Positions 1,159 to 4,668 of a stretch of DNA of 55,407 nucleotides are shown here, in pieces. The notes below the pieces were generated by a model. That model was not told the origin of the DNA, ran no database searches, and saw nothing but the letters and a program-made list of their open reading frames with translations. The stretch lies in assembly GCF_900142415.1 (NCBI RefSeq), contig NZ_FRAU01000004.1:277501-332907 (forward strand). Direction: 5' to 3'. A program made the position numbers and the translations under genes. The DNA comes from Rhodothermus profundi (GTDB lineage Bacteria; Bacteroidota; Rhodothermia; Rhodothermales; Rhodothermaceae). Each line of letters starts with the position of its first letter. Position 1 is the first letter of the stretch.

Positions 1159-1401
1159 AAAACCCAACACACCTCCTGAATCTCTTTAAAGAAACAGCAT
1201 CCTAACCAACAAGTCAAAGGAAAAACAGCGAACTTTGATGCTTTTCCTTTTTACCTCCAAAAACAATACCGCCCCGGCTATAAACATAGCTGCAAAAACC
1301 TCAAAACTCTTAACAAAACAGGCCGCCACATGTCCACTGCCCCCTCAAAGACACCCACACCTTTGTCGAAAGATGAAAAATCTGTTGTTTACCAAATTAG
1401 G

Positions 1402-1432
1402 ATTGATTAGTATTAAATACGATTTATCTTAT
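1402..1432 (+). promoter_or_regulatory. Candidate promoter with embedded palindrome upstream of the heme-copper operon
   Basis: The 1171-1467 gap is AT-rich and has no supported gene. Within it ATTG (1402-1405), a 19-base spacer and TATCTTAT (1425-1432) approximate the TTTG-N19-TAnnTTTG promoter of Bacteroidota. The spacer contains the perfect 11-base palindrome GTATTAAATAC (1410-1420), placed where a repressor or activator could act. The transcript would reach the first start codon (1468) after a leader of about 30 bases. This is a pattern match only. Confidence 0.4.
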
Positions 1433-1467
1433 AGTCAGGTAGCCTCTGGTGCAGACCTGCAACAGCC

Positions 1468-1626
1468 ATGGAGACGCATCAACAACACCCCATCCCCTGG
1501 CAGCAGCAAATTTACGACAACCCCTGGCTGCTGGCCGGGGCTGCCATTGTGTTCTTCGTGCTTTCCTACATCGTCTGGGGCGTGATTGATCTGCTCACCA
1601 TCCCGGCAGGAGGGACAACGCCATGA
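1468..1626 (+). CDS. 52-residue single-helix protein, probable small subunit of the heme-copper enzyme
   Basis: This short frame encodes a soluble head rich in His and Gln (METHQQHPIPWQQQ), one hydrophobic helix at about residues 20-43 and a short tail. Its TGA overlaps the ATG of the CuA subunit gene (1623-1626), so the two are very likely co-translated. Its position and one-helix topology resemble the tiny IIa subunit (CbaD) of Thermus ba3 oxidase, but I see no sequence identity that proves this. It is easily missed because of its length. Assignment as a subunit is inference from position and topology. Confidence 0.65.
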   Translation: METHQQHPIPWQQQIYDNPWLLAGAAIVFFVLSYIVWGVIDLLTIPAGGTTP

Positions 1627-2162
1627 GCTCGCCACTAAAACCCCTGGAAGGAAACTGGTGGGCCATCCCTGCCAGTCGCCACGAAAAGGTCTGGGTCTGG
1701 CTCAGCGTCGCGTGGGGCCTGATCCTCTTCGGGTGGATGGTCGGTTGGAGTTTCTTTGGCGCTCAGAACCAACACGGTCCCACCTATCGCATTGAGCCGG
1801 CCGCCTATCGGGCCAAACTCGCCGCCTACCGCGAGGCCAGCACGACCACCACGCAGGGCCTGCGCCCTGCTGGAGAGGATGTGTATATCGCGGCTATGCG
1901 GTACGGCTTTGACGGTCTGCCCGTCATTTTAAAAGCCGGCAAAACCTACCGGCTGCATTTGACCAGCTACGACGTGCAGCACGGATTTTCTATCCGTCCG
2001 GAGCATGCGCTCAGCAAGCAGATCACCCTGCAGCTTTTGCCCGGCTACGAATGGGTGATCCCCATGCGGTTCGATGAACCGGGCGTCTATCACGTGATCT
2101 GCAACGAGTTCTGCGGCATCGGGCATCGCACCATGCACGGCATTTTCATCGTGGAGGAATGA
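1623..2162 (+). CDS. Heme-copper enzyme subunit II with CuA centre
   Basis: This 179-residue protein has one membrane helix at about residues 24-46 and then a periplasmic cupredoxin domain. All CuA ligands are present: His120 (DVQHGF), Cys160 and Cys164 with Glu162 between them (CNEFC), His168 and Met171. The short length and single helix match subunit II of ba3-type (B-family) oxidases and related enzymes rather than A-family subunit II, which has two helices. An intact CuA site means that electrons are likely delivered by a cytochrome c or another soluble donor, not by quinol. It overlaps the upstream 52-residue gene and lies 3 bases before subunit I. Confidence 0.92.
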   Translation: MSSPLKPLEGNWWAIPASRHEKVWVWLSVAWGLILFGWMVGWSFFGAQNQHGPTYRIEPAAYRAKLAAYREASTTTTQGLRPAGEDVYIAAMRYGFDGLPVILKAGKTYRLHLTSYDVQHGFSIRPEHALSKQITLQLLPGYEWVIPMRFDEPGVYHVICNEFCGIGHRTMHGIFIVEE

Positions 2163-2165
2163 GCT

Positions 2166-3878
2166 ATGGCTGGCCTGCTACTTTCCGGAACCTATGATGC
2201 CGACGGCTTCCGGACGTGCTCGGTCACCGGCCTGCGCATTCACCGGGACGTCGAGCGCTACGTGAAGCTGTTCGCGCTAACGGCTGTAATCGCGCTGTTA
2301 ATCGGCGGCATTTCGGCGATCTTTGTCGCGCTCACCCGGTGGGAAGTGATCGGGTTAGCCGATCCTCCTGCCTTCTACAAATGGCTCAGCATTCATGCCT
2401 GGAATTTGCTGATCTTCTGGATGGTCTTCATGGAGGTGGCCATCCTCTACATCGGGGGACCGCTGGTGCTGGGCCGACCGCTTCCGGCACCCAAACTGGC
2501 CGGCATCGGCTACATCGTCATGCTGGGAGCGGCCCTGATGATCAACCATGCCATCGCCACCACAGAAGCGCCTGACAGTGCTCCCCTGCTGACATCCTAT
2601 GCGCCGCTACCTTCGTCTCCCCTGTTTTATCTGGGCGTCAATCTATTTATCGTGGGGGTTATCATCGCCGCCCTGCCCTTCTTTATCACAATCTGGCAGG
2701 AGAAACAAGCGCACCCCAACCGTTCCCTACCGCTGGTCAGTTTTGGCGCTTTTATTACATCAATCATCGCTCTGGAGGCCTTGCTCGGGGGACTGATTAC
2801 ATACATTCCCACCTTCCTCTGGCGCATCGGCGTGATTGAACACATCGACGCAGCCTGGTACCGGCAAATGTACTGGATTATTGGTCATGGAAGCCAGCAA
2901 ATCAACCTGGCGGCCATGATCACGGTCTGGTATTTCCTGACGCATGTGGTGGGAGGCGCCGAGGTTGTTAGCGAAAAGCTTTCGCGGACGGCCTTTATCC
3001 TGTATCTGTTCTTCATCAACATGGGAGCCGCCCACCATCTGCTGGCCGATCCGGGTGTTCATATGAGCTGGAAGCACTGGAACACCTCCTATGCTGTCTA
3101 CGGCGCCGTACTGGCCAGCATGATCCATGCCTTTGCCATTCCAGCCGGCTTAGAAGCAGGTCGCCGGAAACGCGGCTTTGGACGCCAGGGACTTTTTGGC
3201 TGGCTCTGGTCGGCCCCCTGGGGCAACCCTGTCTTTTCGGCCACCGTGCTGGGCATCATTATGTTTGGGTTTATCGGCGGCATTTCGGGCGTCGTCATGG
3301 GGCAGACCCAGCTTAACCTGACGTGGCACAACACGCTGGGCGTGCCGGGGCACTTCCATGGCACCGTAGTCCTGGGTACTACGCTGACGTTTATGGCCCT
3401 GGTCTACTTTGCCCTCCCGGTCCTGTTTAACCGGGACCTGGTGTTCAAACCGCTGGCCCGGATTCAACCCTACTTCTATGCGGTGGCCATGGGGCTGGCC
3501 ACAATCATGATGCTCTACCTGGGTGTGCTCTACGGGGTCCCGCGCCGGCATCCGTCGGTGATGAGCTTTCCGGGCACAGACTTTAGCTTTGAAGCGGCTG
3601 CCCCCCTGTTTGCCATTTTCGGCGTGGCAGCTTTACTGGCAATCATTGCCGGCGGCAGTTTTCTGGTCGTAGCCGTAGGATCGCTGCTTTTCGGAAAGCG
3701 GATCGATAATCCCGCCCTGGTTATGCCGCCACTGATCTCAGGCGGCAGCGACGACAAGCCGATTTATCAGTACTCTATGCAGGGGACGCTCACGCTGACG
3801 CTCATCTTCCTTGCAGTGTTTGCCATCATCTACGCGGTGAACTGGTACCTGCTGGGGCGCCTGTGGGCGATTGGCTAA
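2166..3878 (+). CDS. Heme-copper catalytic subunit I without active-site Tyr, eNOR-type nitric oxide reductase
   Basis: This 570-residue membrane protein has the ba3-like subunit I layout. Metal ligands are kept: His77 (low-spin heme), His241, His290 and His291 (CuB), and His396 and His398 in PGHFH (high-spin and low-spin hemes). In ba3 oxidase the helix VI motif is GHPIVY, and its Tyr, four residues after the CuB His, is crosslinked to that His and needed to split O2. Here the motif is GHGSQQ, so Gln245 replaces the Tyr. Loss of this Tyr is a mark of nitric-oxide-reducing members of the superfamily, and as I recall the eNOR family was characterised from Rhodothermus marinus. Glu90 in the second or third helix could be a proton or iron-site residue. 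NO reduction to N2O is therefore the best reading; automated annotation may well say cytochrome c oxidase. Confidence 0.85.
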   Translation: MAGLLLSGTYDADGFRTCSVTGLRIHRDVERYVKLFALTAVIALLIGGISAIFVALTRWEVIGLADPPAFYKWLSIHAWNLLIFWMVFMEVAILYIGGPLVLGRPLPAPKLAGIGYIVMLGAALMINHAIATTEAPDSAPLLTSYAPLPSSPLFYLGVNLFIVGVIIAALPFFITIWQEKQAHPNRSLPLVSFGAFITSIIALEALLGGLITYIPTFLWRIGVIEHIDAAWYRQMYWIIGHGSQQINLAAMITVWYFLTHVVGGAEVVSEKLSRTAFILYLFFINMGAAHHLLADPGVHMSWKHWNTSYAVYGAVLASMIHAFAIPAGLEAGRRKRGFGRQGLFGWLWSAPWGNPVFSATVLGIIMFGFIGGISGVVMGQTQLNLTWHNTLGVPGHFHGTVVLGTTLTFMALVYFALPVLFNRDLVFKPLARIQPYFYAVAMGLATIMMLYLGVLYGVPRRHPSVMSFPGTDFSFEAAAPLFAIFGVAALLAIIAGGSFLVVAVGSLLFGKRIDNPALVMPPLISGGSDDKPIYQYSMQGTLTLTLIFLAVFAIIYAVNWYLLGRLWAIG

Positions 3879-3897
3879 GCAATCGAAGCAGGCAAAC

Positions 3898-4668
3898 ATG
3901 GCTTCCCATAATGTCGATCTGATGCCGCGCGTTAACGGGGCGGCTGAGTCCCCGACCCTCCTGCCGGCAGGATGGCGGGGACTCAGCCGGGGGCAGCGGC
4001 TCTGGCGTTTTATCAAGAGTCTCTACTACGCCAGCAGTCCGAGCTGGCGACTGCTTAAAAGTGGCGCCTTGTTTTTCTTTGGGTTCTTCTGCTGGGCAAT
4101 TGGCAATTTGTTGCATGCGTATCTGCCGGACGTGTACTGGCCGAATCTGCTGATCGTCTACGGCGCCCTGCTGTTCTGGTTTGGACCGCTGACGCACCTG
4201 GTGTTTGTGCCGCACCTGCTTCCCTGGTTGCGCCGTCAGCGTCGGCATCGAGCACTGCACTGGTTGGGCGGGCATTTCACCGCAACCCTGCTGACGGTAT
4301 TTTTCACCACGGTAGTGCTTCTGAGTCTAAATCCACCGGACTTTGTGGTACTGGACGTTCGGGGCCGTCTGCACGGCACCTCAACGCAAGCTGCGGCAGA
4401 GCTAGCTGCCCACCCGCCGGAGCTAACCTGCCGGCGCGCGCGCCATCAGATCACCTGCACGCTGACCTATGTGCCTGCCACCGTCACACGCATTGAGGTA
4501 ACCTCAGGACCGCGGCGCCTGCTTCAGCTTAACGCGCAAGAGACGACCTTCACCCTCTCGGAACAGGACCTGACCGAAGTGCTGGGACAGCGGGAATTTC
4601 GCGTAACGCTCTACGACCGGCGCGGGCAGCAGCTTCGCGAGTTTGTTCGGACGACCGCGTTTCTCTAA
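3898..4668 (+). CDS. Three-helix membrane protein of the heme-copper operon, unknown function
   Basis: From the ATG at 3898 the product is 256 residues. An in-frame TTG at 3871 would overlap subunit I by 8 bases and add 9 residues. After a basic N-terminus there are three hydrophobic segments (roughly residues 52-75, 82-105 and 126-146), followed by a soluble C-terminal domain of about 100 residues containing two cysteines 7 apart (LTCRRARHQITC). It shares the operon with the CuA and catalytic subunits, so an accessory subunit or assembly role is plausible, but I do not recognise the family. It converges on the Fur gene with a gap of only 3 bases. Confidence 0.6.
   Translation: MASHNVDLMPRVNGAAESPTLLPAGWRGLSRGQRLWRFIKSLYYASSPSWRLLKSGALFFFGFFCWAIGNLLHAYLPDVYWPNLLIVYGALLFWFGPLTHLVFVPHLLPWLRRQRRHRALHWLGGHFTATLLTVFFTTVVLLSLNPPDFVVLDVRGRLHGTSTQAAAELAAHPPELTCRRARHQITCTLTYVPATVTRIEVTSGPRRLLQLNAQETTFTLSEQDLTEVLGQREFRVTLYDRRGQQLREFVRTTAFL

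Follow-up and report, generated by a model that had tools for sequence, protein, structure and literature searches.

We describe a heme-copper operon in a stretch of 55,407 nucleotides of the Rhodothermus profundi genome (contig NZ_FRAU01000004.1, positions 277,501 to 332,907 of the forward strand; the whole stretch is called the window below) that is a candidate for eNOR, a nitric oxide (NO) reductase related to the ba3 oxidases. Four open reading frames (ORFs) occupy positions 1468-4668, with limits that agree with those in an earlier annotation made from the DNA letters (the first-pass annotation), and a conserved block precedes them:

1376..1436, plus strand: AT-rich block 5' of the operon, conserved across the genus, a probable promoter or regulatory element
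1468..1626, plus strand: small single-helix membrane protein of 52 residues (ORF with one predicted transmembrane helix)
1623..2162, plus strand: subunit II with CuA site (H120, C160, C164, H168, M171), 179 residues (PDB match, Pfam COX2)
2166..3878, plus strand: subunit I, the putative eNOR catalytic subunit, 570 residues (Pfam COX1, alignments, trees, AlphaFold model)
3871..4668, plus strand: membrane protein of 265 residues with a C-terminal beta-sandwich domain, member of a family found in clade A (defined below), no Pfam family match; its start codon is TTG, and an ATG is present at 3898

Routine annotation would take subunit I for a cytochrome c oxidase, as the first-pass annotation had anticipated: Pfam assigns it to COX1 (E 5e-54), and every NCBIfam model stays below its curated cut-off, TIGR02891 coming best with 62.7 bits against 670.75. 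By sequence, its best match among solved structures is to Thermus ba3 oxidases (E 1.5e-38), and identity to the ba3-type rows of our alignment is 27-31%. Six histidines line up with the heme and CuB ligands of the ba3-type oxidases: His77 and His398 as ligands of the low-spin heme, His396 of the high-spin heme, and His241, His290 and His291 of CuB. Helix VI reads GHGSQQ, and the column of Gln245 is occupied by tyrosine, the residue that is cross-linked in ba3, in 20 of 20 ba3 rows. The motif GHxxQQ[VI]N recurs in every one of the 80 closest related loci, bacterial and archaeal, which had been retrieved with other peptides; Gln245 is thus not a chance substitution. The 80 are the best of 131 loci confirmed in a scan of named genomes for relatives and are hence enriched for eNOR. 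The 37 eNOR rows of the alignment were hand-picked for spread as ORFs holding GHxxQQ, so that their glutamine is there by choice; the count of 80/80 is free of that choice. An AlphaFold model of subunit I built from the 37 rows (mean predicted local distance difference test (pLDDT) 86.4, predicted TM-score (pTM) 0.88) adopts the heme-copper oxidase fold. Its top Foldseek match is a ba3 oxidase (E 9e-16, TM-score 0.76), and A-type and ba3 chains are tied among the first 20 rows of a structural aligner (Z 32-33, root-mean-square deviation 2.7-3.1 Å).

Subunit II matches the Thermus ba3 subunit II in the PDB (E 6e-16) as well as Pfam COX2, and in alignment its residues H120, C160, C164, H168 and M171 find their counterparts in the CuA domain of the Thermus enzyme. 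Of 81 eNOR loci, 79 encode the corresponding pattern C-x3-C-x3-H-x2-M 5' of subunit I; in the other two (L083, L120) subunit I adjoins a contig end. The description in the first-pass annotation of a complete set of six heme and CuB histidines, of a glutamine in the place of the cross-linked tyrosine and of an intact CuA subunit alongside is thereby upheld on every count.

The separation from the oxidases is also seen in two trees. In tree 1 (73 rows, LG+C20) the 20 ba3 rows cluster together (support 100/98), and the 37 eNOR rows make up a second group (99/99) with six rows of a companion protein, a second subunit-I-like protein of distant eNORs that is described below; tree 1 used six of the eight aligned companion rows and eight of 21 other oxidases. 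Tree 2 (63 rows), which omits the long-branched companion, qNOR and cbb3 rows, returns the 37 eNOR rows as one group (100/100) and the ba3 rows as another (99/97). The window protein and the other 36 glutamine-bearing rows fall outside the ba3 group in both trees, the placement on which the first-pass annotation had made its proposal depend; cNOR rows are in neither tree, and the comparison set holds no bNOR sequence. Two rows (L228, L230), which we take to be qNOR-like from their HLWVE/HMWVE motif, are placed far from window subunit I.

The gene content of the genome points in the same direction. A PF00115 search found three heme-copper subunits I, namely an A-type, a ba3-type and the window protein (types assigned from tree 1), and no other NO reductase candidate. 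The genome also encodes NosZ (872 bits, cut-off 625), NirK (392 bits, cut-off 296) and a cd1 NirS (398 bits, cut-off 25.5). Across seven genomes of the genus, NosZ and NirK are present in 7/7, full-length cd1 in 5/7 (not in G001 and G002) and eNOR in 6/7. Of the 80 related loci, 26 have nirK or nirS in their flanks (17 of the 41 in clade A and nine of the 39 others), as against none of 19 non-eNOR oxidase loci (Fisher p 0.003); flanks extended to at most 8 kb and less at contig ends, and the window is not among the 80. When the 46 loci of at least 17 kb are considered, the count is 22/46 (p 9e-5). The control set is small: its 19 oxidase loci, of which 16 are haloarchaeal, come from six genomes that also carry eNOR, and L254 was dropped as itself an eNOR locus; in the six genomes that supplied it, three of six eNOR loci (L060, L088, L129) have nirK or nirS nearby.

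The family itself is already in print. eNOR has been defined by this very glutamine, and many eNORs are mislabelled as cytochrome c oxidases (PMC8756737). The missing tyrosine and a sister position to the B-type oxidases have been noted (PMC6431628), an operon holding both eNOR and NirK has been described (PMC4653789), and the ba3-a1 type, equivalent to eNOR, is said to act as an NO reductase with reduced cytochrome c as donor (PMC8879329). eNOR has also been termed biochemically characterised, with Murali et al. 2024 cited (PMC11388526). The enzyme is thus known in kind and in genus, with the diagnostic glutamine, a Rhodothermus member and NO reductase activity all published, and the suspicion of the first-pass annotation that it might be known was well founded: a Rhodothermus profundi protein, which may or may not be that of the window, is listed and said to miss its C-terminal part (PMC8756737). 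Our interest in the enzyme is moderate to low because the family has been published. The eNOR candidacy put forward in the first-pass annotation is supported by Gln245, by both trees, by the helix VII residue discussed below, by genome content and by the literature. Ligands, glutamine, CuA site, clade and gene content can all be read from the sequence, and we are highly confident that the window operon encodes eNOR, a B-family-like heme-copper NO reductase. The enzyme of Murali et al. 2024 (PNAS) reportedly came from R. marinus, in line with the statement in the first-pass annotation that the eNOR family was characterised from this species.

We infer the activity, donor, proton path and role of the enzyme in the following form. 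The donor would be soluble, either cytochrome c, HiPIP or a blue copper protein, and its electrons would arrive at CuA in subunit II. The low-spin heme, with its ligands His77 and His398, would relay them to the high-spin heme (His396) and to CuB (His241, 290, 291), where 2 NO + 2 e- + 2 H+ would be converted to N2O + H2O; N2O (nitrous oxide) is a greenhouse gas. The cross-linked tyrosine, here replaced by Gln245, is the proposed source of the fourth electron in O2 reduction and would be dispensable in a two-electron reaction. Protons would probably be drawn from the cytoplasm via a changed K-channel (Tyr256, Ser318, His321), and turnover should therefore be electrogenic. These three residues are invariant in the 37 eNOR rows and presumably stand at the places of Tyr248, Ser309 and Thr312 of the Thermus ba3 K-channel; published models give eNOR a proton channel (PMC8756737). 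In the cell, eNOR would connect NirS and NirK with NosZ in a path from nitrite to N2. It would thus supply the missing step from NO to N2O in a thermophile whose genome is that of a predicted nitrite-to-N2 denitrifier.

A number of observations weigh against this reading. Tyr280 is invariant in 37/37 eNOR rows and lies four residues from the position of the cbb3 helix VII tyrosine. Near-identical species among the 80 loci (e.g. Halorubrum) are not independent. In the genome searches, narG reaches its cut-off in none of the seven genus genomes (napA was not searched); NirK, NirS and NosZ have no match in the 17.5 kb upstream of the operon or in the 55-kb window, and NosZ lies near none of the 80 eNOR loci. 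One genus member, G002, retains nirK and nosZ though its operon has been lost. Finally, eNor has been termed quinol-dependent, at odds with a soluble donor (PMC13274419).

Several observations would suit an O2 reductase of ba3 type in which another residue, for instance Tyr280 of helix VII or the two glutamines, substitutes for the cross-linked tyrosine: Tyr280 is invariant, CuA and the K-channel-like residues are retained and the closest solved structures by sequence are those of ba3 oxidases. Rhodothermus is, moreover, mainly aerobic. C-type oxidases carry their tyrosine in helix VII (PMC3084760), and the first-pass annotation had named a tyrosine from another helix modelled at the active site, together with O2 reductase activity, as one of the findings that would count against its proposal. 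L216 and L217, named cbb3-like from their motif, have this tyrosine, but in 37/37 eNOR rows the same column holds Ile284, so that neither known position holds a tyrosine in these rows. GHxxQQ in 80/80 loci, the separate clade, the A-type and ba3-type oxidases that the genome already possesses, the nir linkage in relatives and the published NO reductase activity of the family likewise argue against a tyrosine-less oxidase, which we regard as very unlikely.

Other points bear on physiology. If the enzyme removed NO for detoxification instead of respiration, which would be a sub-case of the eNOR reading and not exclusive of it, then the lack of an adjoining denitrification gene, the scores of narG below cut-off in 7/7 genomes and the loss of the operon in G002 beside a surviving nirK and nosZ would all be in keeping. 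The joint presence of nirS, nirK and nosZ in the genome and the nirK linkage in relatives speak for respiration, and both the entry of electrons at CuA and the K-channel-like residues point to energy conservation; we consider a detoxifying role possible but rather unlikely. The loss in G002 can be traced in some detail. The genus genome search returned no eNOR gene from this genome (one contig), and its sequence (L256) agrees with that of G004 (L257) over 4.8 kb (97.7%) and 2.9 kb (95.0%) on either side of about 2.97 kb that it lacks. The missing piece takes in the promoter block, genes one to three and the 5' part of gene four. The breakpoint falls within the 265-residue protein's gene, near window position 4304, and shows a 4-base overlap; since a remnant of that gene persists, the operon was lost by deletion. 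An R. marinus metagenome-assembled genome (MAG) from compost with expressed nitrous oxide reductase genes is described as carrying nirB rather than nirK, with nirS in no MAG (PMC8434746), and so differs from the genus genomes searched here, with nirK in 7/7 and full-length cd1 in 5/7.

Respiratory or not, eNOR is kept in six of seven Rhodothermus genomes (own included) at 88-100% identity, the five relatives lying at 88 to 95%. Beyond the genus, the best 80 relatives include haloarchaea (57-65%), Salinivenus (72%), Thermus, Verrucomicrobiota, Myxococcota, Chloroflexota, Nitrospirota and others; in a phylum sample of 296 genomes, 12 had a match above 780 bits, the next score being 249 bits. In tree 1, window subunit I groups with G004, G001, Salinivenus and two Bacteroidota MAGs (98/98), within a larger group of 17 rows, here called clade A, that comprises Rhodothermota-like bacteria, one uncultured bacterium and haloarchaea (100/100). 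For loci outside the tree, clade A (the window, L052-L091 and L094) was set by identity (at least 57% against at most 48%); the 39 loci outside clade A are not one clade in tree 1. The mixture of domains in clade A likely reflects inter-domain transfer, its direction hanging on two forks at 83/57 and 86/89 only.

Two further proteins accompany the catalytic pair. A pattern for the 52-residue protein, written after the family had been viewed, has a match 5' of subunit II at 72 of 79 loci as against 0 of 760 random positions, and a similar protein is listed in five of the seven loci that miss the pattern; this is likely a small subunit of the enzyme. Downstream of subunit I, 40 of the 42 clade-A loci (window counted; the exceptions are L076 and L086) and none of the 39 others encode a member of the family of the 265-residue protein, which by this distribution is an accessory protein of one eNOR clade. 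Its model (mean pLDDT 86, pTM 0.62) consists of helices and a C-terminal beta-sandwich, and two cysteines are invariant across 29 rows. Foldseek gave only partial, weak Ig/fibronectin-like matches (best E 4e-4, about 86 residues) and no match for the membrane part, which says nothing either way. This conservation of accessory genes across domains, the intact state of all four ORFs, the retention of every metal ligand and the close match (88 to 95% identity) to the five relatives in the genus render it extremely improbable that the operon is a relic or serves another substrate, a notion to which the scores of subunit I below every NCBIfam cut-off might otherwise lend itself.

Outside clade A, eNOR loci have a different make-up. 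A second subunit-I-like protein of about 480 residues lies upstream of eNOR subunit I in 28 of 39 such loci, or 25 of the 32 with at least 2.3 kb of upstream sequence (for instance L110:5819-7276, L117:5909-7294, L107:5877-7262, L093:5765-7246 and others). In the phylum sample it occurs in five of seven genomes with a non-clade-A eNOR (the L258 copy holds a stop) and in one, G310, that has no eNOR match. Seven aligned members keep the helix II histidine, the helix VI histidine and the HxH of helix X and lack the CuB histidine pair; the protein may therefore bind hemes without CuB. We found no mention of it in the literature passages searched, which do not cover the primary eNOR paper. A protein of about 700-900 residues lies downstream of many non-clade-A eNORs (a cluster in 35 loci, e.g. 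L108:6413-9157, L110:10759-12870); the L108 copy, the one scanned, has cytochrome b and 4Fe-4S domains, and the protein is perhaps an electron donor from quinol. Tentatively, and with our judgement still leaning slightly the other way, we propose that Rhodothermota and haloarchaeal eNOR would be a four-protein enzyme (52-residue helix, CuA subunit, subunit I and beta-sandwich membrane protein) moved between domains as a unit, with many other eNORs pairing with the CuB-less subunit-I-like protein, so that there would be two distinct multi-subunit forms of eNOR.

Two side observations concern individual eNORs. In Thermus composti and T. brockianus (L125:7980-9665, L129:7980-9665) GHFK replaces GHFH, so that a lysine stands in place of the low-spin heme histidine. 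In a Bacteroidota MAG (L057) the neighbour of eNOR is a NirK-cytochrome c fusion, and ORFs beside eNOR (L057:11673-15513) resemble, by eye, heme synthesis genes (HemN-, HemG/HemY- and HemH-like).

The upstream block 1376..1436 is kept in six aligned genus loci, the sequence farther upstream diverging, and on this pattern is a probable promoter or regulatory block of the operon; a palindrome-like core at window positions 1407-1416 is kept across the genus. AT-rich sequences with a GTAC core, or near to one, lie close to the eNOR, nirK (L169) and nirS (L179-L181) starts in the genus; those 5' of nirK and nirS hold AGTACT or GTAC. No regulatory site shared by eNOR, nirK and nirS is proposed, the pattern giving 11 genome matches against 28 for its reversed control (at most two mismatches), which in this one test is not above background. 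An FNR-like box (TTGATTAGTATTAA) was also discarded, being matched exactly in just three of six genus loci. No Rfam family matches the window at gathering scores.

Beyond the published family, our additions are modest: two conserved accessory proteins, an operon deletion in one relative and the second subunit-I-like protein of distant eNORs. The accessory genes and the natural deletion provide handles on the function of the extra proteins and on energy conservation by NO reduction; a closer look would be most worthwhile at the accessory proteins and at the subunit-I-like companion seen beside distant eNORs.

The window enzyme can be set against several known systems. With the Thermus thermophilus ba3 oxidase it has in common the fold, the heme and CuB ligands and a CuA subunit II, and it differs by Gln245 for tyrosine, by an identity of 27-31% to ba3-type rows and by tree separation. 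qNOR and cNOR have the heme-copper superfamily fold; the predicted reaction is common to them and to the window enzyme, which differs by its CuA partner and CuB-type histidine ligands, cNOR being absent from the compared set. The cbb3 (C-family) oxidases have a tyrosine in helix VII where the window protein has Ile284. The bNOR (CuANOR) of Bacillus is likewise an NO reductase related to the B-family oxidases (PMC11388526), with CuA in its old name. The closest likeness is to eNOR (ba3-a1) of Chloroflexota, haloarchaea, Rhodothermus and others, with a glutamine for the helix VI tyrosine, a CuA subunit II just upstream and a B-family-like subunit I in common. Nothing was found against membership in this family, within which the window clade does without the second COX1-like protein of many other members and adds the downstream 265-residue protein.

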